Shown in pieces: positions 1 to 64,000 of a stretch of DNA of 64,000 nucleotides. The notes under the pieces are model-generated. The model saw nothing but the letters and a program-made list of their open reading frames with translations. It searched no databases and had not been told where the DNA came from. Origin of the DNA: Lepidurus packardi (taxonomy: Eukaryota > Arthropoda > Branchiopoda > Notostraca > Triopsidae); NCBI GenBank assembly GCA_023053545.1, contig JAKZAN010000077.1, positions 88,925 through 152,924 of the forward strand. The letters are read 5' to 3'. Made by a program: the position numbers and the translations under genes. The number at the start of each line of letters is the position of its first letter. Position 1 is the first letter of the stretch.

Positions 1-480
1 CCGTAAGGAATTAATTCAGTCCGTAAGGAATTAATTCAGTCAGTAAGGAATTAATTCAGTCCGTAAGGAATTAATTCAGTCCGTAAGGAATTAATTCAGT
101 CCGTAAGGATTTAATTCAGTCCGTAAGGTATTAATTCAGTCAGTAAGGAATTAATTCAGTCCGTAAGGAATTAATTCAGTCCGTATGAAATTAATTCAGT
201 CCGTAAGGAATTAATTAAGGAATTAATTCAGTCCATAAGGAATTAATTCAGTCCGTAAGGAATAACTTCAGTACGTAAGGAAATAATTCAGTCCGTAATG
301 GATTAATTAAGTCCGTAATGAATTAATTCAGTCCGTAAGGAATTAATAAAATCCGTACGGAATTAATTCAGACCGTAAGGAATTAATTAAGTACGTAAGG
401 AATTAATTAAGTCCGTAAGGAATTAATTCAGTCCGTAAGGAATTAATTCAGTCCGTAAGGAATTAATTCAGTCCGTAAGG
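1..480 (+). repeat. Left copy of a 1,728-bp-offset duplication
   Basis: Bases 1-480 match about 1,729-2,209. Landmarks shared at the same distance are CAGTCAGTAAGG (141 and 1,869), the truncated unit (211 and 1,939), and the following GGAATAACTT, CCGTAATGGATT and CCGTACGG variants. After about 480 the left copy reads GGAATAAATT while the right reads GGAATTATTTAAG, so the match ends. The left end of this copy is cut by the window edge. Confidence 0.8.
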
Positions 481-490
481 AATAAATTCA

Positions 491-1104
491 GTCCGTAAGG
501 AATTAATTCAGTCCGTAAGGAATTAATTTAGTCCGTAAGGAATTAATTCAGTCCGTAAGGAATTAATTCAGTCCGTAATCGATTAATTAAGTCCGTAATG
601 AATTAATTCAGTCCGTATGAAATTAATTCAGTCCGTAAGGAATTAATTAAGGAATTAATTCAGTCCGTAAGGAATTAATTCAGTCCGTAAGGAATTATTT
701 CAGTATGTAAGGAAATAATTCAGTCCGTAAGTAATTAATTCAGTCCGTAAGGAATAACTTCAGTACGTAAAGAAATAATTCAGTCCGAAATGGATTAATT
801 AAGTCCGTAATGAATTAATTCAGTCCTTTAGGAATTAATAAAATCCGTACGGAATTAATTCAGACCGTAAGGAATTAATTAAGTACGTAAGGAATTAACT
901 AAGTCCGAAAGGAATTAATTCAGTCCGTAAGGAATTAATTCAGTCCGTAAGGAATTAATTAAGTCCGTAAGGAATTAATTCAGTCCGTAAGGAATTAATT
1001 TAGTCCGTAAGGAATTAATTCAGTCCGTAAGGAATTATTTAAGTCAGTAAGGAATTAATTCAGTCCGTAAGGAATTAATTCAGTCCGTAAGGAATTAATT
1101 CAGT
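491..1104 (+). repeat. Segment repeated at offset 2,289
   Basis: This matches about 2,780-3,393: CCGTAATCG (572 and 2,861), the truncated unit (643 and 2,932) and GGAATTATTTCAGTATG (691 and 2,980) keep one offset. A few substitutions separate the copies, for example CCTTTAGG near 826 and AAGTCAG context near 1,031. The same segment type appears again starting near 6,540 and 10,652. Confidence 0.75.
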
Positions 1105-1728
1105 CCGTAAGGAATTAATTCAGTCCGTAAGGAATTAATTCAGTCCGTAAGGAATTAATTCAGTCCGTAAGGATTTAATTCAGTCCGTAAGGTATTAATT
1201 CAGTCCGTAAGGAATTAATTCAGTCCGTAAGGAATTAATTCAGTCCGTATGAAATTAATTCAGTCCGTAAGGAATTAATTAAGGAATTAATTCAGTCCGT
1301 AAGGAATTAATTCAGTCCGTAAGGAATTAATTCAGTCCGTAAGGAATTAATTCAGTCAGTAAGGAATTAATTCAGTCCGTAAGGAATTAATTCAGTCCGT
1401 AAGGAATTAATTCAGTCCGTAAGGATTTAATTCAGTCCGTAAGGTATTAATTCAGTCCGTAAGGAATTAATTCAGTCCGTAAGGAATTAATTCAGTCCGT
1501 ATGAAATTAATTCAGTCCGTAAGGAATTAATTAAGGAATTAATTCAGTCCGTAATTAATTAATTCAGTCCGTAAGGAATAACTTCAGTACGTAAGGAAAT
1601 AATTCAGTCCGTAATGGATTAATTAAGTCCGTAATGAATTAATTCAGTCCGTAAGGAATTAATAAAATCCGTACGGAATTAATTCAGGCCGTAAGGAATT
1701 AATTCAGTCCGTAAGGAATTAATTCAGT

Positions 1729-2209
1729 CCGTAAGGAATTAATTCAGTCCGTAAGGAATTAATTCAGTCAGTAAGGAATTAATTCAGTCCGTAAGGAATT
1801 AATTCAGTCCGTAAGGAATTAATTCAGTCCGTAAGGATTTAATTCAGTCCGTAAGGTATTAATTCAGTCAGTAAGGAATTAATTCAGTCCGTAAGGAATT
1901 AATTCAGTCCGTATGAAATTAATTCAGTCCGTAAGGAATTAATTAAGGAATTAATTCAGTCCATAAGGAATTAATTCAGTCCGTAAGGAATAACTTCAGT
2001 ACGTAAGGAAATAATTCAGTCCGTAATGGATTAATTAAGTCCGTAATGAATTAATTCAGTCCGTAAGGAATTAATAAAAATCCGTACGGAATTAATTCAG
2101 ACCGTAAGGAATTAATTAAGTACGTAAGGAATTAATTAAGTCCGTAAGGAATTAATTCAGTCCGTAAGGAATTAATTCAGTCCGTAAGGAATTAATTCAG
2201 TCCGTAAGG
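1729..2209 (+). repeat. Right copy of the 1,728-bp-offset duplication, with 1-bp insertion
   Basis: This copy matches 1-480. At 2,076-2,080 it has five A in the AATAAAATCC variant where other copies have four, which moves every later landmark by one base (offset 1,729 from there on). It is the only single-base length change I found in family A. Confidence 0.8.
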
Positions 2210-3191
2210 AATTATTTAAGTATGTAAGGAAATAATTCAGTCCGTAAGTAATTAATTCAGTCCGTAAGGAATAACTTCAGTACGTAAAGAAATAATTCAG
2301 TCCGAAATGGATTAATTAAGTCCGTAATGAATTAATTCAGTCCGTAAGGAATTAATAAAATCCGTACGGAATTAATTCAGTCAGTAAGGAATTAATTCAG
2401 TCCGTAAGGAATTAATTCAGTCCGTAAGGAATTAATTCAGTCCGTAAGGATTTAATTCAGTCCGTAAGGTATTAATTCAGTAGGTAAGGAATTAATTCAG
2501 TCCGTAAGGAATTAATTCAGTCTGTAATGGATTAATTAAGTCCGTAATGAATAAATTCAGTCCGTAAGGAATTAATAAAATCCGTACGGAATTAATTCAG
2601 TCCGTAAGGAATTAATAAAATCCGTAAGGAATTAATTCAGTCCGTAAGGAATTAATTCAGTCTGTAATGGATTAATTAAGTCCGTAATCGATTAATTAAG
2701 TCCGTAATGTATTAATTCAGTCCGTATGAAATTAATTCAGACCGTAAGGAATTAATTAAGTACGTAAGGAATTAATTAAGTCCGTAAGGAATTAATTCAG
2801 TCCGTAAGGAATTAATTTAGTCCGTAAGGAATTAATTCAGTCCGTAAGGAATTAATTCAGTCCGTAATCGATTAATTAAGTCCGTAATGAATTAATTCAG
2901 TCCGTATGAAATTAATTCAGTCCGTAAGGAATTAATTAAGGAATTAATTCAGTCCGTAAGGAATTAATTCAGTCCGTAAGGAATTATTTCAGTATGTAAG
3001 GAAATAATTCAGTCCGTAAGTAATTAATTCAGTCCGTAAGGAATAACTTCAGTACGTAAAGAAATAATTCAGTCCGTAATGGATTAACTAAGTCCGTAAT
3101 GAATTAATTCAGTCCGTAAGGAATTAATAAAATCCGTACGGAATTAATTCAGACCGTAAGGAATTAATTAAGTACGTAAGGAATTAACTAA

Positions 3192-6100
3192 GTCCGAAAG
3201 GAATTAATTCAGTCCGTAAGGAATTAATTCAGTCCGTAAGGAATTAATTAAGTCCGTAAGGAATTAATTCAGTCCGTAAGGAATTAATTTAGTCCGTAAG
3301 GAATTAATTCAGTCCGTAAGGAATTAATTAAGTCAGTAAGGAATTAATTCAGTCCGTAAGGAATTAATTCAGTCCGTAAGGAATTAATTCAGTCCGTAAG
3401 GATTTAATTCAGTCCGTAAGGTATTAATTCAGTCCGTAAGGAATTAATTCAGTCCGTAAGGAATTAATTCAGTCCGTAAGGAATTAATTCAGTCCGTAAG
3501 GATTTAATTCAGTCCGTAAGGTATTAATTCAGTCCGTAAGGAATTAATTCAGTCCGTAATGAATTAATTCAGTCCGTATGAAATTAATTCAGTCCGTAAG
3601 GAATTAATTAAGGAATTAATTCAGTCCGTAAGGAATTAATTCAGTCCGTAAGGAATAACTTCAGTACGTAAGGAAATAATTCAGTCCGTAATGGATTAAT
3701 TAAGTCCGTAATGAATTAATTCAGTCCGTAAGGAATTAATAAAATCCGTACGGAATAAATTCAGGCCGTAAGGAATTAATTCAGTCCGTAAGGAATTAAT
3801 TCAGTCCGTAAGGAATTAATTCAGTCCGTAAGGAATTAATTCAGTCAGTAAGGAATTAATTCAGTCCGTAAGGAATTATTTCAGTCCGTAAGGAATTAAT
3901 TCAGTCCGTAAGGATTTAATTCAGTCCGTAAGGTATTAATTCAGTCCGTAAGGAATTAATTCAGTCCGTAAGGAATTAATTCAGTCCGTATGAAATTAAT
4001 TCAGTCCGTAAGGAATTAATTAAGGAATTAATTCAGTCCATAAGGAATTAATTCAGTCCGTAAGGTATTAATTCAGTCCGTAAGGAATTAATTCAGTCCG
4101 TAAGGAATTAATTCAGTCCGTATGAAATTAATTCAGTCCGTAAGGAATTAATTAAGGAATTAATTCAGTCCATAAGGAATTAATTCAGTCCGTAAGGAAT
4201 AACTTCAGTACGTAAGGAAATAATTCAGTCCGTAATGGATTAATTAAGTCCGTAATGAATTAATTCAGTCCGTAAGGAATTAATAAAATCCGTACGGAAT
4301 TTATTCAGACCGTAAGGAATTAATTAAGTCCGTAAGGAATTAATTCAGTCCGTAAGGAATTAATTCAGTCCGTAAGGAATTAATTCAGTCCGTAAGGAAT
4401 TATTTCAGTATGTAAGGAAATAATTCAGTCCGTAAGTAATTAATTCAGTCCGTAAGGAATAACTTCAGTACGTAAAGAAATAATTCAGTCCGAAATGGAT
4501 TAATTAAGTCCGTAATGAATTAATTCAGTCCGTAAGGAATTAATAAAATCCGTACGGAATTAATTCAGACCGTAAGGAATTAATTAAGTACGTAAAGAAT
4601 TAACTAAGTCCGAAAGGAATTAATTCAGTCCGTTAGGAATTAATTCAGTCCGTAAGGATTTAATTAAGTCAGTAAGGAATTAATTCAGTCCGTAAGGAAT
4701 TAATTCAGTCCGTAAGGAATTAATTCAGTCCGTAAGGATTTAATTCAGTCCGTAAGGTATTAATTCAGTCCGTAAGGAATTAATTCAGTCCGTAAGGAAT
4801 TAATTCAGTCCGTAAGGAATTAATTCAGTCCGTAAGGATTTAATTCAGTCCGTAAGGTATTAATTCAGTCCGTAAGGAATTAATTCAGTCCGTAAGGAAT
4901 TAATTCAGTCCGTATGAAATTAATTCAGTCCGTACGGAATTAATTAAGGAATTAATTCAGTCCGTAAGGAATTAATTCAGTCCGTAAGGAATAACTTCAG
5001 TACGTAAGGAAATAATTCAGTCCGTAATGGATTAATTAAGTCCGTAATGAATTAATTCAGTCCGTAAGGAATTAATAAAATCCGTACGGAATAAATTCAG
5101 GCCGTAAGGAATTAATTCAGTCCGTAAGGAATTAATTCAGTCCGTAAGGAATTAATTCAGTCCGTAAGGAATTAATTCAGTCAGTAAGGAATTAATTCAG
5201 TCCGTAAGGAATTATTTCAGTCCGTAAGGAATTAATTCAGTCCGTAAGGATTTAATTCAGTCCGTAAGGTATTAATTCAGTCCGTAAGGAATTAATTCAG
5301 TCCGTAAGGAATTAATTCAGTCCGTATGAAATTAATTCAGTCCGTAAGGAATTAATTAAGGAATTAATTCAGTCCATAAGGAATTAATTCAGTCCGTAAG
5401 GAATAACTTCAGTACGTAAGGAAATAATTCAGTCCGTAATGGATTAATTAAGTCCGTAATGAATTAATTCAATCCGTAAGGAATTAATAAAATCCGTACG
5501 GAATTTATTCAGACCGTAAGGAATTAATTAAGTCCGTAAGGAATTAATTCAGTCCGTAAGGAATTAATTCAGTCCGTAAGGAATTAATTCAGTCCGTAAG
5601 GAATTATTTCAGTATGTAAGGAAATAATTCAGTCCGTAAGTAATTAATTCAGTCCGTAAGGAATAACTTCAGTACGTAAAGAAATAATTCAGTCCGAAAT
5701 GGATTAATTAAGTCCGTAATGAATTAATTCAGTCCGTAAGGAATTAATAAAATCCGTACGGAATTAATTCAGACCGTAAGGAATTAATTAAGTACGTAAA
5801 GAATTAACTAAGTCCGAAAGGAATTAATTCAGTCCGTAAGGAATTAATTCAGTCCGTAAGGATTTAATTCAGTCAGTAAGGAATTAATTCAGTCCGTAAG
5901 GAATTAATTCAGTCCGTAAGGAATTAATTCAGTCCGTAAGGATTTAATTCAGTCCGTAAGGAATTAATTCAGTCCGTAAGGAATTAATTCAGTCCGTAAG
6001 GAATTAATTCAATCTGTAATGGATTAATTAAGTCCGTAATGAATAAATTCAGTCCGTAAGGAATTAATAAAATCCGTACGGAATTAATTCAGTTCGTAAG

Positions 6101-6539
6101 GAATTTATTCAGTCCGTAAGGAATTAATAAAATCCGTACGGAATTAATTCAGTCCGTAAGGAATTAATAAAATCCGTACGGAATTAATTCAGACCGTAAG
6201 GAATTAATTCAGTCCGTAAGGAATTAATTTAGTCCGTAAGGAATTAATTCAGTCCGTAAGGAATTAATTCAGTCAGTAAGGAATTAATTCAGTCCGTAAG
6301 GAATTAATTCAGTCCGTAAGGAATTAATTTAGTCCGTAAGGATTTAATTCAGTCCGTAAGGTATTAATTCAGTCCGTAAGGAATTTATTCAGTCCGTAAG
6401 GAATTAATAAAATCCGTACGGAATTAATTCAGTACTTAAGGAATTAATAAAATCCGTAAGGAATTAATTCAGTCCGTAAGGAATTAATTTAGTCCGTAAG
6501 GAATTAATTCAGTCCGTAAGGAATTAATTCAGTCCGTAA
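3192..6539 (+). repeat. 4,112-bp-offset duplication, copy 1
   Basis: This stretch aligns to 7,304-10,651 without a length change. Truncated units at 3604, 4016, 4148, 4940 and 5352 correspond to 7716, 8128, 8260, 9052 and 9464, and the rare CAGTACTTAAGG variant at 6,433 corresponds to 10,545. Few differences are visible (for example CCGTAATGAATT near 3,555 against CCGTAAGGAATT in copy 2). Copy 1 is itself built from older internal duplications, with offset 1,336 (3604 to 4940) and 1,204 (4148 to 5352). Confidence 0.88.
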
Positions 6540-7303
6540 GGAATTATTTCAGTATGTAAGGAAATAATTCAGTCCGTAAGTAATTAATTCAGTCCGTAAG
6601 GAATAACTTCAGTACGTAAAGAAATAATTCAGTCCGTAATGGATTAACTAAGTCCGTAATGAATTAATTCAGTCCGTAAGGAATTAATAAAATCCGTACG
6701 GAATTAATTCAGACCGTAAGGAATTAATTAAGTACGTAAGGAATTAACTAAGTCCGAAAGGAATTAATTCAGTCCGTAAGGAATTAATTCAGTCCGTAAG
6801 GAATTAATTCAGTCCGTAAGGAATTAATTTAGTCCGTAAGGAATTAATTCAGTCCGTAAGGAATTAATTAAGTCAGTAAGGAATTAATTCAGTCCGTAAG
6901 GAATTAATTCAGTCCGTAAGGAATTAATTCAGTCCGTAAGGATTTAATTCAGTCCGTAAGGTATTAATTCAGTCCGTAAGGAATTAATTCAGTCCGTAAG
7001 GAATTAATTCAGTCCGTAAGGAATTAATTCAGTCCGTAAGGATTTAATTCAGTCCGTAAGGTATTAATTCAGTCCGTAAGGAATTAATTCAGTCCGTAAG
7101 GAATTAATTCAGTCCGTATGAAATTAATTCAGTCCGTAAGGAATTAATTAAGGAATTAATTCAGTCCGTAAGGAATTAATTCAGTCCGTAAGGAATAACT
7201 TCAGTACGTAAGGAAATAATTCAGTCCGTAATGGATTAATTAAGTCCGTAATGAATTAATTCAGTCCGTAAGGAATTAATAAAATCCGTACGGAATTAAT
7301 TCA
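6540..7303 (+). repeat. Segment linking the two 4.1-kb copies
   Basis: From GAATTATTTCAGTATG at 6,541 this copies the sequence starting at 2,981 (offset 3,560, changing to 3,540 before 6,961 after loss of one monomer), through the truncated unit at 7144 (equivalent to 3604). It ends at a hybrid monomer, CAGACCGAAAGG, near 7,303. The left half of that hybrid matches the usual CAGACCG variant and the right half the AAGTCCGAAAGG variant. This is the signature of an exchange between non-equivalent monomers. Confidence 0.75.
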
Positions 7304-10300
7304 GACCGAAAGGAATTAATTCAGTCCGTAAGGAATTAATTCAGTCCGTAAGGAATTAATTAAGTCCGTAAGGAATTAATTCAGTCCGTAAGGAATTAAT
7401 TTAGTCCGTAAGGAATTAATTCAGTCCGTAAGGAATTAATTAAGTCAGTAAGGAATTAATTCAGTCCGTAAGGAATTAATTCAGTCCGTAAGGAATTAAT
7501 TCAGTCCGTAAGGATTTAATTCAGTCCGTAAGGTATTAATTCAGTCCGTAAGGAATTAATTCAGTCCGTAAGGAATTAATTCAGTCCGTAAGGAATTAAT
7601 TCAGTCCGTAAGGATTTAATTCAGTCCGTAAGGTATTAATTCAGTCCGTAAGGAATTAATTCAGTCCGTAAGGAATTAATTCAGTCCGTATGAAATTAAT
7701 TCAGTCCGTAAGGAATTAATTAAGGAATTAATTCAGTCCGTAAGGAATTAATTCAGTCCGTAAGGAATAACTTCAGTACGTAAGGAAATAATTCAGTCCG
7801 TAATGGATTAATTAAGTCCGTAATGAATTAATTCAGTCCGTAAGGAATTAATAAAATCCGTACGGAATAAATTCAGGCCGTAAGGAATTAATTCAGTCCG
7901 TAAGGAATTAATTCAGTCCGTAAGGAATTAATTCAGTCCGTAAGGAATTAATTCAGTCAGTAAGGAATTAATTCAGTCCGTAAGGAATTATTTCAGTCCG
8001 TAAGGAATTAATTCAGTCCGTAAGGATTTAATTCAGTCCGTAAGGTATTAATTCAGTCCGTAAGGAATTAATTCAGTCCGTAAGGAATTAATTCAGTCCG
8101 TATGAAATTAATTCAGTCCGTAAGGAATTAATTAAGGAATTAATTCAGTCCATAAGGAATTAATTCAGTCCGTAAGGTATTAATTCAGTCCGTAAGGAAT
8201 TAATTCAGTCCGTAAGGAATTAATTCAGTCCGTATGAAATTAATTCAGTCCGTAAGGAATTAATTAAGGAATTAATTCAGTCCATAAGGAATTAATTCAG
8301 TCCGTAAGGAATAACTTCAGTACGTAAGGAAATAATTCAGTCCGTAATGGATTAATTAAGTCCGTAATGAATTAATTCAGTCCGTAAGGAATTAATAAAA
8401 TCCGTACGGAATTTATTCAGACCGTAAGGAATTAATTAAGTCCGTAAGGAATTAATTCAGTCCGTAAGGAATTAATTCAGTCCGTAAGGAATTAATTCAG
8501 TCCGTAAGGAATTATTTCAGTATGTAAGGAAATAATTCAGTCCGTAAGTAATTAATTCAGTCCGTAAGGAATAACTTCAGTACGTAAAGAAATAATTCAG
8601 TCCGAAATGGATTAATTAAGTCCGTAATGAATTAATTCAGTCCGTAAGGAATTAATAAAATCCGTACGGAATTAATTCAGACCGTAAGGAATTAATTAAG
8701 TACGTAAAGAATTAACTAAGTCCGAAAGGAATTAATTCAGTCCGTAAGGAATTAATTCAGTCCGTAAGGATTTAATTAAGTCAGTAAGGAATTAATTCAG
8801 TCCGTAAGGAATTAATTCAGTCCGTAAGGAATTAATTCAGTCCGTAAGGATTTAATTCAGTCCGTAAGGTATTAATTCAGTCCGTAAGGAATTAATTCAA
8901 TCCGTAAGGAATTAATTCAGTCCGTAAGGAATTAATTCAGTCCGTAAGGATTTAATTCAGTCCGTAAGGTATTAATTCAGTCCGTAAGGAATTAATTCAG
9001 TCCGTAAGGAATTAATTCAGTCCGTGTGAAATTAATTCAGTCCGTAAGGAATTAATTAAGGAATTAATTCAGTCCGTAAGGAATTAATTCAGTCCGTAAG
9101 GAATAACTTCAGTACGTAAGGAAATAATTCAGTCCGTAATGGATTAATTAAGTCCGTAATGAATTAATTCAGTCCGTAAGGAATTAATAAAATCCGTACG
9201 GAATAAATTCAGGCCGTAAGGAATTAATTCAGTCCGTAAGGAATTAATTCAGTCCGTAAGGAATTAATTCAGTCCGTAAGGAATTAATTCAGTCAGTAAG
9301 GAATTAATTCAGTCCGTAAGGAATTATTTCAGTCCGTAAGGAATTAATTCAGTCCGTAAGGATTTAATTCAGTCCGTAAGGTATTAATTCAGTCCGTAAG
9401 GAATTAATTCAGTCCGTAAGGAATTAATTCAGTCCGTATGAAATTAATTCAGTCCGTAAGGAATTAATTAAGGAATTAATTCAGTCCATAAGGAATTAAT
9501 TCAGTCCGTAAGGAATAACTTCAGTACGTAATAAAATAATTCAGTCCGTAATGGATTAATTAAGTCCGTAATGAATTAATTCAGTCCGTAAGGAATTAAT
9601 AAAATCCGTACGGAATTTATTCAGACCGTAAGGAATTAATTAAGTCCGTAAGGAATTAATTCAGTCCGTAAGGAATTAATTCAGTCCGTAAGGAATTAAT
9701 TCAGTCCGTAAGGAATTATTTCAGTATGTAAGGAAATAATTCAGTCCGTAAGTAATTAATTCAGTCCGTAAGGAATAACTTCAGTACGTAAAGAAATAAT
9801 TCAGTCCGAAATGGATTAATTAAGTCCGTAATGAATTAATTCAGTCCGTAAGGAATTAATAAAATCCGTACGGAATTAATTCAGACCGTAAGGAATTAAT
9901 TAAGTACGTAAAGAATTAACTAAGTCCGAAAGGAATTAATTCAGTCCGTAAGGAATTAATTCAGTCCGTAAGGATTTAATTCAGTCAGTAAGGAATTAAT
10001 TCAGTCCGTAAGGAATTAATTCAGTCCGTAAGGAATTAATTCAGTCCGTAAGGATTTAATTCAGTCCGTAAGGAATTAATTCAGTCCGTAAGGAATTAAT
10101 TCAGTCCGTAAGGAATTAATTCAATCTGTAATGGATTAATTAAGTCCGTAATGAATAAATTCAGTCCGTAAGGAATTAATAAAATCCGTACGGAATTAAT
10201 TCAGTTCGTAAGGAATTTATTCAGTCCGTAAGGAATTAATAAAATCCGTACGGAATTAATTCAGTCCGTAAGGAATTAATAAAATCCGTACGGAATTAAT

Positions 10301-10651
10301 TCAGACCGTAAGGAATTAATTCAGTCCGTAAGGAATTAATTTAGTCCGTAAGGAATTAATTCAGTCCGTAAGGAATTAATTCAGTCAGTAAGGAATTAAT
10401 TCAGTCCGTAAGGAATTAATTCAGTCCGTAAGGAATTAATTTAGTCCGTAAGGATTTAATTCAGTCCGTAAGGTATTAATTCAGTCCGTAAGGAATTTAT
10501 TCAGTCCGTAAGGAATTAATAAAATCCGTACGGAATTAATTCAGTACTTAAGGAATTAATAAAATCCGTAAGGAATTAATTCAGTCCGTAAGGAATTAAT
10601 TTAGTCCGTAAGGAATTAATTCAGTCCGTAAGGAATTAATTCAGTCCGTAA
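7304..10651 (+). repeat. 4,112-bp-offset duplication, copy 2
   Basis: This is the partner of 3,192-6,539. Changes private to this copy include CCGTGTGAAATT near 9,021 (CCGTATGAAATT in copy 1 at about 4,909) and CGTAATAAAATAATT near 9,528. At 10,652 it switches to CCGTAATCG, which resembles sequence from 2,861 (offset about 7,784), so a third copy of the 2.9-kb region begins here. Confidence 0.88.
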
Positions 10652-11051
10652 TCGATTAATTAAGTCCGTAATGAATTAATTCAGTCCGTATGAAATTAAT
10701 TCAGTCCGTAAGGAATTAATTAAGGAATTAATTCAGTCCGTAAGGAATTAATTCAGTCCGTAAGGAATTATTTCAGTATGTAAGGAAATAATTCAGTCCG
10801 TAAGTAATTAATTCAGTCCGTAAGGAATAACTTCAGTACGTAAAGAAATAATTCAGTCCGTAATGGATTAACTAAGTCCGTAATGAATTAATTCAGTCCG
10901 TAAGGAATTAATAAAATCCGTACGGAATTAATTCAGACCGTAAGGAATTAATTAAGTACGTAAGGAATTAACTAAGTCCGAAAGGAATTAATTCAGTCCG
11001 TAAGGAATTAATTCAGTCCGTAAGGAATTAATTAAGTCCGTAAGGAATTAA

Positions 11052-12415
11052 TTCAGTCCGTAAGGAATTAATTTAGTCCGTAAGGAATTAATTCAGTCCG
11101 TAAGGAATTAATTAAGTCAGTAAGGAATTAATTCAGTCCGTAAGGAATTAATTCAGTCCGTAAGGAATTAATTCAGTCCGTAAGGATTTAATTCAGTCCG
11201 TAAGGTATTAATTCAGTCCGTAAGGAATTAATTCAGTCCGTAAGGAATTAATTCAGTCCGTAAGGAATTAATTCAGTCCGTAAGGATTTAATTCAGTCCG
11301 TAAGGTATTAATTCAGTCCGTAAGGAATTAATTCAGTCCGTAAGGAATTAATTCAGTCCCTATGAAATTAATTCAGTCCGTAAGGAATTAATTAAGGAAT
11401 TAATTCAGTCCGTAAGGAATTAATTCAGTCCGTAAGGAATAACTTCAGTACGTAAGGAAATAATTCAGTCCGTAATGGATTAATTAAGTCCGTAATGAAT
11501 TAATTCAGTCCGTAAGGAATTAATAAAATCCGTACGGAATTAATTCAGGCCGTAAGGAATTAATTCAGTCCGTAAGGAATTAATTCAGTCCGTAAGGAAT
11601 TAATTCAGTCCGTAAGGAATTAATTCAGTCCGTAAGGTATTAATTCAGTCCGTAAGGAATTAATTCAGTCCGTAAGGAATTAATTCAGTCCGTATGAAAT
11701 TAATTCAGTCCGTAAGGAATTAATTAAGGAATTAATTCAGTCCATAAGGAATTAATTCAGTCCGTAAGGAATAACTTCAGTACGTAAGGAAATAATTCAG
11801 TCCGTAATGGATTAATTAAGTCCGTAATGAATTAATTCAGTCCGTAAGGAATTAATAAAATCCGTACGGAATTAATTCAGACCGTAAGGAATTAATTAAG
11901 TCCGTAAGGAATTAATTCAGTCCGTAAGGAATTAATTCAGTCCGTAAGGAATTAATTCAGTCCGTAAGGAATTATTTCAGTATGTAAGGAAATAATTCAG
12001 TCCGTAAGTAATTAATTCAGTCCGTAAGGAATAACTTCAGTACGTAAAGAAATAATTCAGTCCAAAATGGATTAATTAAGTCCGTAATGAATTAATTCAG
12101 TCCGTAAGGAATTAATAAAATCCGTACGGAATTAATTCAGCCCGTAAGGAATTAATTAAGTACGTAAGGAATTAACTAAGTCCGAAAGGAATTAATTCAG
12201 TCCGTAAGGAATTAATTCAGTCCGTAAGGAATTAATTAAGTCCGTAAGGAATTAATTCAGTCCGTAAGGAATTAATTTAGTCCGTAAGGAATTAATTCAG
12301 TCCGTAAGGATTTAATTCAGTCCGTAAGGTATTAATTCAGTCCGTAAGGAATTAATTCAGTCCGTAAGGAATTAATTCAGTCTGTAATGGATTAATTAAG
12401 TCCGTAATGAATTAA
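11052..12415 (+). repeat. 1,364-bp direct tandem duplication, unit 1
   Basis: This matches the directly following unit 12,416-13,779 base for base at the landmarks tested. These are the truncated units (11388/12752 and 11720/13084) and three rare private variants: CCCTATGAAATT near 11,360/12,724, TCCAAAATGG at 12,061/13,425, and CAGCCCG at 12,141/13,505. The two units abut, so this is a simple tandem duplication of 67 monomers plus two 12-bp units. Confidence 0.9.
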
Positions 12416-49285: not shown

Positions 49286-49370
49286 CGAATTAATTCAGTC
49301 CGTAAGGAAATAATTAAGTCCGTAAGGAATTAATTAAGTCCGTAAGGAATTAATTCAGTCCGTAAGGATA

Positions 49371-49530
49371 TAATTCAGTCCGGAAGGAATAAGTTCAGTA
49401 CGTAAGGAATTAATTCAGTCCGTAAGGAATTAATTCAGTCCGTAAGGATATAATTCAGTCCGGAAGGAATAAGTTCAGTACGTAAGGAATTAATTCAGTC
49501 CGTAAGGAATTAATTCAGTCCGTAAGGAAT
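49371..49530 (+). repeat. 80-bp tandem duplication with private CCGGAAGG
   Basis: GGATATAATTCAG followed by CCGGAAGGAATAAGTT occurs twice, 80 bp apart (from about 49,361 and 49,441). CCGGAAGG was not noticed elsewhere, so this is a recent four-monomer duplication. Confidence 0.8.
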
Positions 49531-52500: not shown

Positions 52501-53100
52501 TAAGGTATTAATTCAGTCCGTAAGGAATTAATTCAGTCCGTAAGGAACTAATTCAGTCCGTAAGGAATTAATTCAATCCGTAAGGAATTAATTCTGTCCG
52601 TGAGGATGTAATTCAGTCCGTAAGGTATTAATTCAGTCCGTAAGGAATTAATTCAGTCCGTAAGGAATTAATTCAGTCCGTAAGGATATAATTCAGTCCG
52701 TAAGGAATAAGTTCAGTACGTAAGGAATTAATTCAGTCCGTAATCGATTAATTAAGTCCGTAATGAATTAATTCAGTCCGTATGAAATTAACTCAGTCCG
52801 TAAGGAATTAATTAAGGAATTAATTCAGTCCGTAAGGAATTAATTCAGTCCGTAATTAATTAATTCATTCCTTACGGAATTAATTAAGTCCATAAGGAAT
52901 TAATTCAGTCTGTAAGGATTTAATTAAGTCCGTAATGAATTAATTCAGTCCGTAATGAATTAATTCAGTCCGTAAGGATTTAATTCAGTCCGTAAGGTAT
53001 TAATTCAGTCCGTAAGGAATTAATTAAGTCCGTAATGAAATAATTCAGTCCGTATGAAATTAATTCAGTCCGTAAGGAATTAATTCAGTCCGTAAGGAAT
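49530..53100 (+). repeat. Alternating P/Q HOR block, copy 1
   Basis: Seven CCTTACGG modules define units of two kinds. P units continue CCGTAATGAATT then CAGACCG (49558, 50741, 51233, 52336). Q units continue with two CCGTAATGAATT monomers and later CCGTAATGAAATAATT (50089, 51704, 52868). The order is P Q P P Q P Q with steps of 531, 652, 492, 471, 632 and 532 bp. A 1-bp-short monomer, CAGTCCAAAGG, ends units at about 50,020 and 51,635, explaining the odd steps 531 and 471. Confidence 0.82.
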
Positions 53101-54886
53101 TAATTCAGTCCGTAAGGAATTAATTCAGTCCGTAAGGAATTAATTCAGTCCGTAAGGATTTTATTCATTCCGTAAGGTATTAATTCAGTCCGTAAGGAAT
53201 TAATTCAGTCCGTATAGAATTAATTCAGTCCGTAAGGAATTAATTCAGTCCGTAAGGAATTAATTCTGTCCGTGAGGATGTAATTCAGTCCGTAAGGTAT
53301 TAATTCATTCCGTAAGGAATTAATTCAGTCCGTAAGGAATTAATTCAGTCCGTAAGGAATTAATTCAGTCCGTAAGAAATTAATTCAGTCCGTAAGGAAT
53401 TCATTCAGTCCGTAAGGAATTCATTCAGTCCGTAAGGAATTAATTCAGTCCGTAAGGAATTAATTCAGTCCGTATAGAATTAATTCAGTCCGTAAGGAAT
53501 TAATTCAGTCCGTAAGGAATTAATTCTGTCCGTGAGGATGTAATTCAGTCCGTAAGGTATTAATTCATTCCGTAAGGAATTAATTCAGTCCGTAAGGAAT
53601 TAATTCAGTCCGTAAGGAATTAATTCAGTCCGTAAGAAATTAATTCAGTCCGTAAGGAATTCATTCAGTCCGTAAGGAATTCATTCAGTCCGTAAGGAAT
53701 TAATTAAGTCCGTAAGGAATTAATTCAGTCCGTAAGGATTTAATTCATTCCGTAAGGTATTAATTCAGTCCGTAAGGAATTAATTCAGTCCGTAAGGAAT
53801 TAATTCAGTCCGTAAGGAATTAATTCAGTCCGTAAGGAATTAATTCTTTCCGTGAGGATGTAATTCAGTCCGTAAGGTATTAATTCAGTCCGTAAGGAAT
53901 TAATTCAGTCCGTAAGGAATTAATTCAGTCCGTAAGGAATTATTTCAGTCCGTAATTAATTAATTCATTCCTTACGGAATTAAATAAGTCTATAAGGAAT
54001 TAATTCAGTCTGTAAGGATTTAATTAAGTCCGTAAGGAATTAATTAAGTCCGTAAGGAATTAATTCAGTCCGTAAGGAATTAATTCAGTCCGTAAGGAAT
54101 TAATTCAGTCAGTAAGGAATTAATTTAGTCCGTAAGGAATTAATTCAGTCCGTAAGGATTTAATTCAGTCCGTAAGGTATTAATTCAGTCCGTAAGGAAT
54201 TAATTCAGTCCGTAAGGAATTAATTCAGTCCGTAAGGATATAATTCAGTCCGTAATGAATTAATTCAGTCCGTATGAAATTAACTCAGTCCGTAAGGAAT
54301 TAATTAAGGAATTAATTCAGTCCGTAAGGAATTAATTCAATCCGTAATTAATTAATTCATTCCTTACGGAATTAATTAAGTCCATAAGGAATTAATTCAG
54401 TCTGTAAGGATTTGATTAAGTCCGTAATGAATTAATTCAGTCCGTAAGGAATTAATTCAGTCCGTAAGGAATTAATTTAGTCCGTAAGGAATTAATTCAG
54501 TCCGTAAGGAATTAATTAAGTCCGTAATGAAATAATTCAGTCCGTATGAAATTAATTCAGTCCGTAAGGAATTCATTCAGTCCGTAAAGAATTAATTCAG
54601 TCCGTAAGGAATTAATTCAGTCCGTAAGGAATTAATTCAGTCCGTAAGGAATTAATTCAGTCCGTAAGGATTTTATTCATTCCGTAAGGTATTAATTCAG
54701 TCCGTAAGGAATTAATTCAGTCCGTATAGAATTAATTCAGTCCGTAAGGAATTAATTCAGTCCGTAAGGAATTAATTCTGTCCGTGAGGATGTAATTCAG
54801 TCCGTAAGGTATTAATTCATTCCGTAAGGAATTAATTCAGTCCGTAAGGAATTAATTCAGTCCGTAAGGAATTAATTCAGTCCGTA

Positions 54887-57800
54887 AGGAATTAATTCAG
54901 TCCGTAAGGAATTAATTCAGTCCGTAAGGATTTTATTCATTCCGTAAGGTATTAATTCAGTCCGTAAGGAATTAATTCAGTCCGTATAGAATTAATTCAG
55001 TCCGTAAGGAATTAATTCAGTCCGTAAGGAATTAATTCTGTCCGTGAGGATGTAATTCAGTCCGTAAGGTATTAATTCATTCCGTAAGGAATTAATTCAG
55101 TCCGTAAGGAATTAATTCAGTCCGTAAGGAATTAATTCAGTCCGTAAGAAATTAATTCAGTCCGTAAGGAATTCATTCAGTCCGTAAGGAATTAATTCAG
55201 TCCGTAAGGAATTAATTCAGTCCGTAAGGAATTAATTCAGTCCGTAAGGAATTAATTCAGTCCGTAAGGATTTTATTCATTCCGTAAGGTATTAATTCAG
55301 TCCGTAAGGAATTAATTCAGTCCGTATAGAATTAATTCAGTCCGTAAGGAATTAATTCAGTCCGTAAGGAATTAATTCTGTCCGTGAGGATGTAATTCAG
55401 TCCGTAAGGTATTAATTCATTCCGTAAGGAATTAATTCAGTCCGTAAGGAATTAATTCAGTCCGTAAGGAATTAATTCAGTCCGTAAGAAATTAATTCAG
55501 TCCGTAAGGAATTCATTCAGTCCGTAAGGAATTCATTCAGTCCGTAAGGAATTAATTCAGTCCGTAAGGAATTAATTCAGTCCGTAAGGAATTAATTCAG
55601 TCCGTAAGGATTTAATTCATTCCGTAAGGTATTAATTCAGTCCGTAAGGAATTAATTCAGTCCGTAAGGAATTAATTCAGTCCGTAAGGAATTAATTCAG
55701 TCCGTAAGGAATTAATTCTGTCCGTGAGGATGTAATTCAGTCCGTAAGGAATTAATTCAGTCCGTAAGGAATTATTTCAGTCCGTAATTAATTAATTCAT
55801 TCCTTACGGAATTAAATAAGTCCATAAAGAATTATGTCAGTCTGTAAGGATTTAATTAAGTCCGTAAGGAATTAATTAAGTCCGTAAGGAATTAATTCAG
55901 TCCGTAAGGAATTAATTCAGTCCGTAAGGAATTAATTCAGTCAGTAAGGAATTAATTTAGTCCGTAAGGAATTAATTCAGTCCGTAAGGATTTAATTCAG
56001 TCCGTAAGGATTTAATTCAGTCCGTAAGGTATTAATTCAGTCCGTAAGGAATTAATTCAGTCCGTAAGCAATTAATTCAGTCCGTAAGGATATAATTCAG
56101 TCCGTAATGAATTAATTCAGTCCGTATGAAATTAACTCAGTCCGTAAGGAATTAATTAAGGAATTAATTCAGTCCGTAAGGAATTAATTCAATCCGTAAT
56201 TAATTAATTCATTCCTTACGGAATTAATTAAGTCCATAAGGAATTAATTCAGTCTGTAAGGATTTGATTAAGTCCGTAATGAATTAATTCAGTCCGTAAG
56301 GAATTAGTTCAGTCCGTAAGGAATTAATTTAGTCCGTAAGGAATTAATTCAGTCCGTAAGGAATTAATTAAGTCCGTAATGAATTAATTCAGTCCGTATG
56401 AAATTAATTCAGTCCGTAAGGAATTCATTCAGTCCGTAAGGAATTAATTCAGTCCGTAAGGAATTAATTCAGTCCGTAAGGAATTAATTCAGTCCGTAAG
56501 GAATTAATTCAGTCCGTAAGGAATTAATTCAGTCCTTAAGGAATTAATTCAGTCCGTAAGGAATTAATTCTGTCCGTGAGGATGTAATTCAGTCCGTAAG
56601 GTATTAATTCCTTCCGTAAGGAATTAATTCAGTCCGTAAGGAATTAATTCAGTCCGTAAGGAATTAATTCAGTCCGTAAGAAATTAATTCAGTCCGTAAG
56701 GAATTCATTCAGTCCGTAAGGAATTCATTCAGTCCGTAAGGAATTAATTCAGTAAGAAAGGAATTCAATCAATCCTAAAGAATTAATTCAGTCCGTAATG
56801 AATTAATTCAGTCCGTAAGGAATTAATTCAGTCCGTAAGAAATTAATTCAGTCAGTAAGGAATTAATTCAGTCCGTATGAAATTAATTCAGTCCGTAAGG
56901 AATTCATTCAGTCCGTAAGGAATTCATTCAGTCCGTAAGGAATTATTCAGTGAGAAAGGAATTCAATCAATCTTAAAGAATTAATTCAGTCCGTAAGGAA
57001 CTAATTCAGTCCGTAAGGAATTAATTCAGTCCGTAAGGAATTAATTAAGTCCGTAAGGAATTAATTAAGTCCGTAAGGAATTAATTCAGTCCGTAAGGAT
57101 TTAATTCATTCCGTAAGGTATTAATTCAGTCCGCAAGGAATTAATTCAGTCCGTAAGGAATTAATTCAGTCCGTAAGGAATTAATTCAGTCCGTAAGGAA
57201 TTAATTCTTTCCGCGAGGATGTAATTCAGTCCGAAAGGTATTAATTCAGTCCGTAAGGAATTAATTCAGTCCGTAAGGAATTAATTCAGTCCGTAAGGAA
57301 TTATTTCAGTCCGTAATTAATTAATTCATTCCTTACGGAATTAAATAAGTCTATAAGGAATTAATTCAGTCTGTAAGGATTTAATTAAGTCCGTAAGGAA
57401 TTAATTAAGTCCGTAAGGAATTAATTCAGTCCGTAAGGAATTAATTCAGTCCGTAAGGAATTAATTCAGTCAGTAAGGAATTAATTTAGTCCGTAAGGAA
57501 TTAATTCAGTCCGTAAGGATTTAATTCAGTCCGTAAGGATTTAATTCAGTCCGTAAGGTATTAATTCAGTCCGTAAGGAATTAATTCAGTCCGTAAGGAA
57601 TTAATTCAGTCCGTATGAAATTAATTCAGTCCGTAAGGAATTCATTCAGTCCGTTAGGAATTAATTCAGTCCGTAAGGAATTAATTCAGTCCGTAAGGAA
57701 TTAATTCAGTCCGTAAGGAATTAATTCAGTCCGTAAGGATTTTATTCATTCCGTAAGGTATTAATTCAGTCCCTAAGGAATTAATTCAGTCCGTAAGGAA

Positions 57801-58692
57801 TTAATTCAGTCCGTAAGGTATTAATTCAGTCCGTAAGGAATTAATTCTGTCCGTGAGGATGTAATTCAGTCCGTAAGATATTAATTCATTCCGTAAGGAA
57901 TTAATTCAGTCCGTAAGGAATTAATTCAGTCCGTAAGGAATTAATTCAGTCCGTAAGAAATTAATTCAGTCCGTAAGGAATTCATTCAGTCCGTAAGGAA
58001 TTCATTCAGTCCGTAAGGAATTAATTCAGTAAGAAAGGAATTCAATCAATCCTAAAGAATTAATTCAGTCCGTTAGGAAATATTTCAGTCCGTAAGGAAT
58101 TAATTCAGTCCGTAAGGAATTAATTCAGTCCGAAAGGAATTAGTTCAGTACGTAAGGAATTAATTCAGTCCGTAATGAATTAATTCAGTCCGTAATGAAT
58201 TAATTCAGTCCGTAAGGAATTAATTCAGTCCGTAAGAAATTAATTCAGTCAGTAAGGAATTAATTCAGTCCGTATGAAATTAATTCAGTCCGTAAGGAAT
58301 TCATTCAGTCCGTAAGGAATTCATTCAGTCCGTAAGGAATTATTCAGTGAGAAAGGAATTCAATCAATCTTAAAGAATTAATTCAGTCCGTAAGGAACTA
58401 ATTCAGTCCGTAAGGAATTAATTCAGTCCGTAAGGAATTAATTAAGTCCGTAAGGAATTAATTAAGTCCGTAAGGAATTAATTCAGTCCGTAAGGTATTA
58501 ATTCAGTCCGTAATGAATTAATTCAGTCCGTATGAAATTAATTCAGTCCGTAAGGAATTCATTCAGTCCGTAAGGAATTCATTCAGTCCGTAAGGAATTC
58601 ATTCAGTCCGTAAGGAATTAATTCAGCGAGAAAGGAATTCAATCAATCTTAAAGAATTAATTCAATCCGTAAGGAACTAATTCAGTCCGTAA
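54887..58692 (+). repeat. Family B 3.9-kb segment, copy 2
   Basis: Partner of 45,420-49,285, shorter by 60 bp near 56,530, where CCTTAAGG replaces the CCGTAAGGATTTT and CATTCCGTAAGG stretch seen at about 47,041-47,100. Divergence at the right end begins where copy 1 reads CCGTAACGAATT and copy 2 CCGTAATGAATT. Confidence 0.87.
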
Positions 58693-58737
58693 TGAATTAA
58701 TTCAGTCCGTATGAAATTAACTCAGTCCGTAAGGAAT

Positions 58738-60800
58738 TAATTAAGGAATTAATTCAGTCCGTAAGGAATTAATTCAGTCCGTAAGGAATTAATTCAGTCC
58801 GTAATTAATTAATTCATTCCTTACGGAATTAATTAAGTCCATAAGGAATTAATTCAGTCTGTAAGGATTTAATTAAGTCCGTAATGAATTAATTCAGACC
58901 GTAAGGAATTAATTCAGTCCGTAAGGAATTAATTCAGTCCGTAAGGAATTAATTCAGTCCGTAAGGATTTAATTCAGTCCGTAAGGTATTAATTCAGTCC
59001 GTAAGGAATTAATTCAGTCCGTAAGGAACTAATTCAGTCCGTAAGGAATTAATTCAATCCGTAAGGAATTAATTCTGTCCGTGAGGATGTAATTCAGTCC
59101 GTAAGGTATTAATTCAGTCCGTAAGGAATTAATTCAGTCCGTAAGGAATTAATTCAGTCCGTAAGGATATAATTCAGTCCGTAAGGAATAAGTTCAGTAC
59201 GTAAGGAATTAATTCAGTCCGTAATCGATTAATTAAGTCCGTAATGAATTAATTCAGTCCGTATGAAATTAACTCAGTCCGTAAGGAATTAATTAAGGAA
59301 TTAATTCAGTCCGTAAGGAATTAATTCAGTCCGTAATTAATTAATTCATTCCTTACGGAATTAATTAAGTCCATAAGGAATTAATTCAGTCTGTAAGGAT
59401 TTAATTAAGTCCGTAATGAATTAATTCAGTCCGTAATGAATTAATTCAGTCCGTAAGGATTTAATTCAGTCCGTAAGGTATTAATTCAGTCCGTAAGGAA
59501 TTAATTAAGTCCGTAATGAAATAATTCAGTCCGTATGAAATTAATTCAGTCCGTAAGGAATTAATTCAGTCCGTAAGGAATTAATTCAGTCCGTAAGGAA
59601 TTAATTCAGTCCGTAAGGAATTAATTCAGTCCGTAAGGAATTAATTCAGTCCGTAAGGATTTTATTCATTCCGTAAGGTATTAATTCTGTCCGTGAGGAT
59701 GTAATTCAGTCCGTAAGGTATTAATTCAGTCCGTAAGGAATTAATTCAGTCCGTAAGGAATTAATTCAGTCCGTAAGGATATAATTCAGTCCGTAAGGAA
59801 TAAGTTCAGTACGTAAGGAATTAATTCAGTCCGTAATCGATTAATTAAGTCCGTAATGAATTAATTCAGTCCGTATGAAATTAACTCAGTCCGTAAGGAA
59901 TTAATTAAGGAATTAATTCAGTCCGTAAGGAATTAATTCAGTCCGTAAGGAATTAATTCAGTCCGTAATTAATTAATTCATTCCTTACGGAATTAATTAA
60001 GTCCATAAGGAATTAATTCAGTCTGTAAGGATTTAATTAAGTCCGTAATGAATTAATTCAGACCGTAAGGAATTAATTCAGTCCGTAAGGAATTAATTCA
60101 GTCCGTAAGGAATTAATTCAGTCCGTAAGGATTTAATTCAGTCCGTAAGGTATTAATTCAGTCCGTAAGGAATTAATTCAGTCCGTAAGGAACTAATTCA
60201 GTCCGTAAGGAATTAATTCAATCCGTAAGGAATTAATTCTGTCCGTGAGGATGTAATTCAGTCCGTAAGGTATTAATTCAGTCCGTAAGGAATTAATTCA
60301 GTCCGTAAGGAATTAATTCAGTCCGTAAGGATATAATTCAGTCCGTAAGGAATAAGTTCAGTACGTAAGGAATTAATTCAGTCCGTAATCGATTAATTAA
60401 GTCCGTAATGAATTAATTCAGTCCGTATGAAATTAACTCAGTCCGTAAGGAATTAATTAAGGAATTAATTCAGTCCGTAAGGAATTAATTCAGTCCGTAA
60501 TTAATTAATTCATTCCTTACGGAATTAATTAAGTCCATAAGGAATTAATTCAGTCTGTAAGGATTTAATTAAGTCCGTAATGAATTAATTCAGTCCGTAA
60601 TGAATTAATTCAGTCCGTAAGGATTTAATTCAGTCCGTAAGGTATTAATTCAGTCCGTAAGGAATTAATTAAGTCCGTAATGAAATAATTCAGTCCGTAT
60701 GAAATTAATTCAGTCCGTAAGGAATTAATTCAGTCCGTAAGGAATTAATTCAGTCCGTAAGGAATTAATTCAGTCCGTAAGGAATTAATTCAGTCCGTAA
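58738..60800 (+). repeat. Alternating P/Q HOR block, copy 2
   Basis: Units at 58817 (P), 59349 (Q), 59981 (P) and 60513 (Q) are spaced 532, 632 and 532 bp. From 51704 to 53968 and from 59349 to 61613 the module spacing is identical (632, 532, 1,100), giving an offset of 7,645. Small compensating one-monomer changes occur near 53,460/61,130. Confidence 0.82.
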
Positions 60801-62329
60801 GGAATTAATTCAGTCCGTAAGGATTTTATTCATTCCGTAAGGTATTAATTCAGTCCGTAAGGAATTAATTCAGTCCGTATAGAATTAATTCAGTCCGTAA
60901 GGAATTAATTCAGTCCGTAAGGAATTAATTCTGTCCGTGAGGATGTAATTCAGTCCGTAAGGTATTAATTCATTCCGTAAGGAATTAATTCAGTCCGTAA
61001 GGAATTAATTCAGTCCGTAAGGAATTAATTCAGTCCGTAAGAAATTAATTCAGTCCGTAAGGAATTCATTCAGTCCGTAAGGAATTAATTCAGTCCGTAA
61101 GGAATTAATTCAGTCCGTAAGGAATTAATTCAGTCCGTATAGAATTAATTCAGTCCGTAAGGAATTAATTCAGTCCGTAAGGAATTAATTCTGTCCGTGA
61201 GGATGTAATTCAGTCCGTAAGGTATTAATTCATTCCGTAAGGAATTAATTCAGTCCGTAAGGAATTAATTCAGTCCGTAAGGAATTAATTCAGTCCGTAA
61301 GAAATTAATTCAGTCCGTAAGGAATTCATTCAGTCCGTAAGGAATTCATTCAGTCCGTAAGGAATTAATTCAGTCCGTAAGGAATTAATTCAGTCCGTAA
61401 GGAATTAATTCAGTCCGTAAGGATTTAATTCATTCCGTAAGGTATTAATTCAGTCCGTAAGGAATTAATTCAGTCCGTAAGGAATTAATTCAGTCCGTAA
61501 GGAATTAATTCAGTCCGTAAGGAATTAATTCTGTCCGTGAGGATGTAATTCAGTACGTAAGGAATTAATTCAGTCCGTAAGGAATTATTTCAGTCCGTAA
61601 TTAATTAATTCATTCCTTACGGAATTAAATAAGTCCATAAAGAATTAATTCAGTCTGTAAGGATTTAATTAAGTCCGTAAGGAATTAATTAAGTCCGTAA
61701 GGAATTAATTCAGTCCGTAAGGAATTAATTCAGTCAGTAAGGAATTAATTTAGTCCGTAAGGAATTAATTCAGTCCGTAAGGATTTAATTCAGTCCGTAA
61801 GGATTTAATTCAGTCCGTAAGGTATTAATTCAGTCCGTAAGGAATTAATTCAGTCCGTAAGGAATTAATTCAGTCCGTAAGAAATTAATTCAGTCAGTAA
61901 GGAATTATTTCAGTCCGTATGAAATTAATTCAGTCCGTAAGGAATTCATTCCGTCCGTAAGGAATTCATTCAGTCCGTAAGGAATTATTCAGTGAGAAAG
62001 GAATTCAATCAATCTTAAAGAATTAATTCAGTCCGTAAGGAACTAATTCAGTCCGTAAGGAATGAATTCAGTCCGTAAGGAATTAATTAAGTCCGTAAGG
62101 AATTAATTAAGTCCGTAAGGAATTAATTCAGTCCGTAAGGATTTAATTCATTCCGTAAGGTATTAATTCAGTCCGCAAGGAATTAATTCAGTCCGTAAGG
62201 AATTAATTCAGTCCGTAAGGAATTAATTCAGTCCGTAAGGAATTAATTCTTTCCGCGAGGATGTAATTCAGTCCGTAAGGTATTAATTCAGTCCGTAAGG
62301 AATTAATTCAGTCCGTAAGGAATTAATTC

Positions 62330-62940
62330 AGTCCGTAAGGAATTATTTCAGTCCGTAATTAATTAATTCATTCCTTACGGAATTAAATAAGTCTATAAGG
62401 AATTAATTCAGTCTGTAAGGATTTAATTAAGTCCGTAAGGAATTAATTAAGTCCGTAAGGAATTAATTCAGTCCGTAAGGAATTAATTCAGTCCGTAAGG
62501 AATTAATTCAGTCAGTAAGGAATTAATTTAGTCCGTAAGGAATTAATTCAGTCCGTAAGGAATTAATTCAGTCCGTAAGGAATTAATTCAGTCCGTAAGG
62601 AATTATTTCAGTCCGTAATTAATTAATTCATTCCTTACGGAATTAAATAAGTCTATAAGGAATTAATTCAGTCTGTAAGGATTTAATTAAGTCCGTAAGG
62701 AATTAATTAAGTCCGTAAGGAATTAATTCAGTCCGTAAGGAATTAATTCAGTCCGTAAGGAATTAATTCAGTCCGTAAGGAATTAATTCAGTCCGTAAGG
62801 AATTATTTCAGTCCGTAATTAATTAATTCATTCCTTACGGAATTAAATAAGTCTATAAGGAATTAATTCAGTCTGTAAGGATTTAATTAAGTCCGTAAGG
62901 AATTAATTAAGTCCGTAAGGAATTAATTCAGTCCGTAAGG
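62330..62940 (+). repeat. Local amplification of the CCTTACGG module
   Basis: Three successive modules at 62371, 62631 and 62831 lie only 260 and 200 bp apart, against 400-1,600 bp elsewhere. Each repeats GGAATTATTTCAG, CCGTAATTAATT, CCTTACGG, CTATAAGG and CTGTAAGGATTT in order. The 60-bp difference is three monomers including the CAGTCAGTAAGG and TTTAGTCCG variants. Confidence 0.85.
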
Positions 62941-64000
62941 AATTAATTCAGTCCGTAAGGATTTAATTCAGTCCGTAAGGTATTAATTCAGTCCGTAAGG
63001 AATTGATTCAGTCCGTAAGGAATTAATTCAGTCCGTATGAAATTAATTCAGTCCGTAAGGAATTCATTCAGTCCGTAAGGAATTAATTCAGTCCGTAAGG
63101 AATTAATTCAGTCCGTAAGGAATTAATTCAGTCCGTAAGGAATTAATTCAGTCCGTAAGGATTTTATTCATTCCGTAAGGTATTAATTCAGTCCCTAAGG
63201 AATTAATTCAGTCCGTAAGGAATTAATTCAGTCCGTAAGGAATTAATTCAGTCCGTAAGGAATTAATTCTGTCCGTGAGGATGTAATTCAGTCCGTAAGG
63301 TATTAATTCATTCCGTAAGGAATTAATTCAGTCCGTAAGGAATTAATTCAGTCCGTAAGGAATTAATTCAGTCCGTAAGAAATTAATTCAGTCCGTAAGG
63401 AATTCATTCAATCCGTAAGGAATTCATTCAGTCCGTAAGGAATTAATTCAGTAAGAAAGGAATTCAATCAATCCTAAAGAATTAATTCAGTCCGTTAGGA
63501 AATATTTCAGTCCGTAAGGAATTAATTCAGTCCGTAAGGAATTAATTCAGTCCGAAAGGAATAAGTTCAGTACGTAAGGAATTAATTCAGTCCGTAATGA
63601 ATTAATTCAGTCCGTAATGAATTAATTCAGTCCTTAAGGAATTAATTCAGTCCGTAAGAAATTAATTCAGTCAGTAAGGAATTCATTCAGTCCGTAAGGA
63701 ATTCATTCAGTCCGTAAGGAATTATTCAGTGAGAAAGGAATTCAATCAATCTTAAAGAATTAATTCAGTCCGTAAGGAACTAATTCAGTCCGTAAGGAAT
63801 TAATTCAGTCCGTAAGGAATTAATTAAGTCCGTAAGGAATTAATTAAGTCCGTAAGGAATTAATTCAGTCCGTAAGGATTTAATTCATTCCGTAAGGTAT
63901 TAATTCAGTCCGCAAGGAATTAATTCAGTCCGTAAGGAATTAATTCAGTCCGTAAGGAATTAATTCAGTCCGTAAGGAATTAATTCTTTCCGTGAGGATG

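Follow-up and report, generated by a model that had tools for sequence, protein, structure and literature searches.

Short monomers that build longer repeat units are already known, and the satellite considered here, a 20-bp repeat that fills the final 64 kb of a 152,924-bp contig of the notostracan Lepidurus packardi (C66:88925-152924, 64,000 nucleotides, hereafter the window), adds another such case. In the available text of PMC4022460, human HSat2,3 are derived from CATTC and include a 1.77-kb unit on chromosome 1. They resemble the window satellite in that a very short ancestral unit has given rise to kilobase units and in being heterochromatic, as the window satellite probably is, and they fall into subfamilies distinct by chromosome, some perhaps with short or inconsistent units; however, they have a different unit, are from a vertebrate, and form far larger arrays, while the window has a 20-bp unit and no dominant long unit. 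The 21-bp repeat of Drosophila miranda, as far as the available text of PMC6117089 describes it, is nearly equal in monomer length, has an 84-bp variant of four monomers, and resembles the window satellite in adjoining an unrelated AT-rich satellite in pericentromeres. It differs in having a much shorter higher-order unit and in having been proposed as centromeric from location and reduced H3K9me3, and it is likened here by description.

Centromeric examples are described in the accessible parts of several further sources. Chionographis japonica has CENH3-enriched repeats of 23/28 bp with a higher-order cluster (PMC10264360), and a 20-bp centromeric repeat of Astragalus sinicus is cited in the same source and discussed together with 10-bp phasing in PMC5844345. 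Both resemble the window satellite in having short tandem monomers, and Chionographis also in its higher-order cluster, but those repeats are associated with CENH3, whereas the window satellite is known from sequence alone. Vicia faba has centromeric satellites of 44-50 bp (PMC5895790), and the satellite survey in PMC4053949 left out monomers of less than 50 bp. A preliminary description of the window had regarded multi-kilobase higher-order repeats (HORs) on so short a monomer as unusual, a view weakened by the precedents in HSat2,3, D. miranda, and Chionographis. A literature text search with six of the 40 rotation and strand forms of the monomer did not find it. The reading favored here, with a probability of roughly 0.72, is that the array is a satellite under neutral turnover, forming constitutive heterochromatin at or near some chromosome ends.

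The array and its monomer

Tandem Repeats Finder (TRF) places the window in a single row (1-63,998) with a period of 20, 3,233.4 copies, 86% matches, and 2% indels, in agreement with the earlier description of a pure 20-bp array of about 3,200 copies. The consensus monomer, CCGTAAGGAATTAATTCAGT, is found on the + strand only across the window, and cyclic alignment to it divides the 64,000 bases into 3,234 units, with 3,048 of exactly 20 nt, 187 distinct, and 931 identical to the consensus. Within the 20-nt units, 6.6% of sites depart from the modal unit. After split units were joined, 3,155 units remained, including 79 of 32 bp, so that a single monomer length holds for the 3,048 units of 20 nt but not for the whole array; 65 of the 79 carry an exact internal 12-bp duplication (TAAGGAATTAAT). 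The core of the monomer, GAATTAATTC, is a 10-bp palindrome, to which the 78 inverted-repeat pairs in the window are attributed (the 25 longest are 71-75% complementary). No open reading frame (ORF) of at least 40 amino acids, no Rfam match at the gathering threshold, and no tRNA was found in the window.

1..64000, + strand: 20-bp satellite array of about 3,230 units, the right-hand portion of the C66 array (about 151.6 kb), which the contig end truncates
201..232, + strand: 32-bp unit, first of 79, by TRF, cyclic alignment, and unit analysis

The figure of 64 kb given earlier for the array is the size of the window. In C66 the array starts at about base 1,260-1,308 and was present in everything read (up to 19.9 kb, 2-kb samples at 30, 45, and 60 kb, 78-88.9 kb, and the window), giving a length of about 151.6 kb provided that the stretches between samples are alike. 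The single orientation reported before likewise holds for the window and the sampled parts of C66, but the genome has both. The sequence preceding the array contains four ORFs of at least 60 amino acids, and the two on the minus strand (241 amino acids, running off the contig, and 110 amino acids) have no Pfam match at the cut-off. A long head-to-tail array of one unit, in high copy number and with concerted evolution within arrays in the form of domain-wise homogenization, is what defines satellite DNA, and all of these features were found.

Block structure, homogenization domains, and turnover

The longest exact unit-by-unit repeat in the window is 78 units (1,572 bp, at 38,274 and 40,078), and one shuffled unit order had zero repeats of eight or more units. 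An ungapped diagonal scan, which overlooks copies differing by insertions or deletions, found 315 segment pairs of at least 600 bp and at least 97% identity, covering 60,453 of the 64,000 bases (94%), while one shuffle of monomer order gave no such pair. The absence of long pairs and of repeats of at least eight units in shuffled orders rules out chance as the source of the block order. These near-identical long copies are irregularly spaced and none crosses a boundary at about 43.6 kb, a combination that favors neutral turnover.

At an identity of at least 95% the window holds 172 tandem blocks. Long periods (200-4,112 bp) occur in 51 of them, each with 2.0-3.8 copies, and short ones (40-180 bp) in the remaining 121, with 2.25-11 copies. 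Nine of the 51 long-period blocks have a period of 412 bp. The range of sizes in the preliminary description, from 200 bp to more than 4 kb, corresponds to these local higher-order blocks, for example:

2056..10828, + strand: about 2.1 copies at a period of 4,112 bp, with 98.8% identity along the best 3,530 bp
10681..14179, + strand: about 2.6 copies at a period of 1,364 bp
16369..17321, + strand: about 3.8 copies at a period of 252 bp
26751..30381, + strand: about 2.4 copies at a period of 1,516 bp
31267..32841, + strand: about 3.8 copies at a period of 412 bp, which is shared by eight further blocks of the left domain
37599..43231, + strand: about 3.1 copies at a period of 1,804 bp, containing the longest exact repeat (1,572 bp)
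45212..46360, + strand: about 3.4 copies at a period of 340 bp, which recurs in another block at 54,681-55,834
58587..61128, + strand: about 2.2 copies at a period of 1,164 bp

Among lags of 1-699 units, the best (379 units) had 15.7% of units matching, against 10.1% expected and a maximum of 11.9% in 50 shuffles; with no dominant lag, an array-wide higher-order period is ruled out. Regular HORs of the alpha-satellite type have one multi-monomer unit in many tandem copies at 95% identity or more, and no such unit was found. The higher-order structure is real yet local, and the term HOR implies more regularity than exists. The ordered variants noted earlier do stand in a non-random order, but they form no regular array-wide unit, and each long-period block has only its 2.0-3.8 copies.

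The boundary at about 43.6 kb separates 265 segment pairs within the left part from 50 within the right part, with zero crossing, and both AT and GC skew shift near 44 kb. Segments of 300 bp were also compared across 19 loci at 97% identity or more, and the following domains are drawn from segment pairs, skew, and this cross-locus comparison:

1..43590, + strand: left homogenization domain
43590..64000, + strand: right homogenization domain

The two domains have different relatives elsewhere. The stretch at 78-87.9 kb of C66 shares 526 diagonals with the left domain and nine with the right (best identity 100%), and contig C105 shares 78 and 75 with the left versus three and six with the right (best 99.3%). 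The first 19.9 kb of C66, in contrast, share 35 and 16 diagonals with the right domain and none with the left (98.0-98.7%), and the end of contig C235 shares 20 with the right and none with the left (best 99.3%). Among the sampled arrays on other scaffolds, the best identity to the window was 94.3% at the end of C1, 92.7% at the start of C2, and 97.0% at the starts of C4 and C35. These domain-specific matches suggest that arrays undergo local homogenization.

A neutral model, in which exponentially distributed tracts were duplicated in tandem or deleted, point mutations arose, and the array was kept at about 3,200 units, was tried in 18 initial runs and then in 32 settings with 12 seeds each; the target was the 3,048 units of 20 nt. 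In the two best settings (mean tract of 40 or 100 units, 0.4 mutations per event, 12,000 events), five of the six observed statistics were within the range of the seeds: most common variant 0.305, best lag match 0.157, divergence 0.066, coverage 0.936, and pairs 326. Random unequal exchange, as modeled, can account for the block pattern in broad terms, so that no function is needed to produce it, and we infer that exchange is the process at work. The array would have grown and been homogenized through random tandem duplication and deletion of stretches of about 1-2 kb, by unequal sister-chromatid exchange or, for the smallest steps, by replication slippage, and the local higher-order blocks would arise in this way without any function. 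The array would then form constitutive heterochromatin at or beside the ends of some chromosomes, near ribosomal DNA (rDNA) on one of them, and its role, if any, would be purely structural.

The block structure could also be partly an artefact of assembly, with repeats expanded, collapsed, or misjoined. Exact repeats of up to 1,572 bp would be in keeping with this, as would the ending of C66 within the array and the runs of 5,000 and 4,574 N that adjoin repeats. The lengths of several contigs are also round numbers (25,000, for example), which may point to Hi-C scaffold splitting. However, the longest copies differ by about 1-3%, which is not expected from plain artefactual duplication, and the satellite is found on many contigs in both orientations, making the artefact very improbable. 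As a separate observation on the assembly, C344 (first 6 kb of 83,344 read) has a GC content of 0.61 and an open frame of 1,835 amino acids that presumably resembles a phage tape-measure protein; it is probably a contaminant contig, and it had zero megablast matches in a phage collection.

Chromosome ends and genome-wide distribution

The exact 40-mer dimer of the monomer occurs 30,467 times in the assembly (108.56 Mb, 344 contigs), 13,196 times in one orientation and 17,271 in the other, and a reversed-pattern control had zero occurrences genome-wide. Scaling from the 412 dimers of the window gives about 4.7 Mb of satellite, and scaling from 313 dimers in 69,973 bases at ten other loci gives about 6.8 Mb; both estimates are rough, as dimer density ranges from six in 8.4 kb to 63 in 6 kb. 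Three of the six chromosome-sized scaffolds (C1, C2, and C4) have such an array at one end, and related arrays are found on many contigs. The six large scaffolds suggest six chromosomes or arms.

On C1 (14.05 Mb), the one scaffold for which the list of dimer positions is complete, all 99 dimers are at or after 13,957,496, in the last 91 kb, with four on the opposite strand. Ahead of this array are a gap of 4,574 N and a match to 28S ribosomal RNA (rRNA) in Rfam, and a sample at 13.90 Mb has 95% of its 12-mers in common with rDNA-bearing stretches. By eye, an ORF with a zinc-finger-like start apparently interrupts the 28S gene at 13.950 Mb (stretch positions about 2,110-2,400), which we take to resemble an R2-type rDNA retroelement. 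On C2 the array runs from the start and persists at 20 kb (two stretches in the first 20.5 kb), and the sample at 50 kb and five others up to 1 Mb lack it. On C4 it was found in all eight stretches read in the first 480.5 kb (start, 20, 50, 100, 200, 300, 400, and 480 kb), with strand switches. Past this block, the sample at 520 kb is an AT-rich 45/123-bp satellite, that at 600 kb belongs to a different 20-bp family, and that at 800 kb holds other sequence. The 45/123-bp satellite also opens C3 and C6, while none of the compared repeats was found at 100 and 400 kb of C3 and C6 or at 12.4 Mb of C5. C30 opens with 45S rDNA and carries matches to the satellite at about 342-361 kb as well as within its final 2 kb. 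From the sequence read, this placement fits chromosome-end or pericentromeric heterochromatin.

Orientation switches exactly through the palindromic core, searched as exact 20-mers genome-wide, are limited to four sites of one junction type (three on C30 and one on C47) and zero of the other, so few that the core is not a frequent switch point. Two diverged families with a 20-bp period were seen at the C35 end (TAATTAATTAAGCCCCTAAT) and at C4:600 kb (GTAATTCATGAATTAAGTCA), with 14% and 6% of 12-mers in common with the window, respectively. Further satellites include a 92-bp repeat at the C20 start and a 153/334-bp repeat with TTAGG-like parts at the C4 right end.

One alternative is a subtelomeric array, in which a satellite of chromosome ends would have spread as non-homologous ends exchanged sequence. 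The array does reach the ends of C1, C2, and C4, its orientation switches on C1 and C4, and related arrays are found on many other contigs. TTAGG is described as the arthropod telomere motif in the available text of PMC8977481. Only one of the 12 large-scaffold ends, the right end of C3, terminates in TTAGG in the 2-10 kb read of each, and there the neighbor of the TTAGG repeats is an 18-bp repeat, which also follows 5 kb of N at the C5 left end. TTAGG was not seen in the sequence read at the array ends of C1, C2, and C4. In addition, no segment of 300 bp in the sampled C1 and C2 arrays (8.4 and 9.9 kb) reaches 97% identity with the window, which speaks against recent exchange with the window array. 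A subtelomeric origin by such exchange is considered rather unlikely. Elsewhere, C86 has about 340 bp of TTAGG repeats with one break, which together with the TTAGG end of C3 points to an arthropod genome; TTAGGC (nematode), four in a row, and a tardigrade-type motif, three in a row, had zero exact matches in the genome. By eye, the C5 left and C6 right ends have similar non-repeat sequence in opposite orientation, as shared subtelomeres would.

Several points weigh against a neutral satellite at chromosome ends. In the model, the observed 169 distinct variants exceed the medians of the best settings (104.5 and 71), none of the 32 settings fits all six statistics and several fit none, and the comparison excluded 107 of the 3,155 units. 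The scaffolds may stop where the assembly broke rather than at true chromosome ends, and contig ends inside arrays show the assembly failing there. Finally, the 20-bp satellite was not seen in the few stretches read of C3, C5, and C6.

The centromere question and significance

Location evidence makes a centromeric role of the array possible. The array would in that case be a functional centromere, or part of one, with CenH3 nucleosomes on the 20-bp repeat of acrocentric chromosomes. Consistent with this, the satellite blocks are at one end of C1, C2, and C4, the opposite end of C4 carries TTAGG-like repeats, and the AT-rich satellite lies past the C4 block as well as opening C3 and C6; short-monomer centromeric satellites are also known from the available text of PMC10264360 and PMC6117089. 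However, a centromeric repeat is looked for on every chromosome, and the repeat is seen on C1, C2, and C4 and not in the stretches read of C3, C5, and C6. The 10-bp periodicity of A/T is not above that of letter-shuffled monomers: of 20,000 letter shuffles, 31% equaled or exceeded the period-10 power of the consensus for any A/T dinucleotide and 67% did so for AA/TT/AT, which gives no sign of the short phased A/T repeat type.

The H3 search also counts against a centromere. Of 52 H3 matches in the genome, the most divergent (45% identity, C283:36627-36932) is in a frame with four stops; in the best 60 of 169 PDB matches of the part beyond the final stop, H3 and centromeric H3 chains fare about the same. 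The surrounding sequence (C283:36200-37200) is divergent and H3-like, with its own N-terminal stretch and the four in-frame stops, and could possibly be a broken copy of centromeric H3. It neither proves nor excludes a working CenH3 gene, because introns could hide one. The CENP-C Pfam family had no match, which says little, as the eight of 14 control genomes in which it was detected were all prokaryotes and all under the cut-off. Histone genes were also seen on C9, where by eye, from ORFs, H3, H4, H2A, and H2B genes adjoin a 5S rRNA gene and 17 full H3 matches are about 4-27 kb apart. A functional centromere is considered unlikely. The earlier suggestion of functional heterochromatin, possibly a centromere, is thus plausible as to heterochromatin, since the satellite is abundant, is gene-free in the window, forms scaffold-end blocks, and has rDNA or AT-rich satellite nearby, but the lack of A/T phasing and of the repeat in the C3, C5, and C6 stretches does not favor its centromeric part.

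A bolder proposal is that the 20-bp satellite is the centromere of acrocentric arthropod chromosomes, and that its irregular blocks would show a short unphased repeat to suffice without a regular higher-order unit; this is quite unlikely. If the centromeric role were true, an arthropod would be added to the few cases of short-monomer centromeres. As a neutrally evolving satellite, the array would be a clean example of a very short repeat that builds kilobase blocks by chance duplication, with a sharp boundary between homogenization domains. As it stands, it is a useful target for mapping rather than a surprise.

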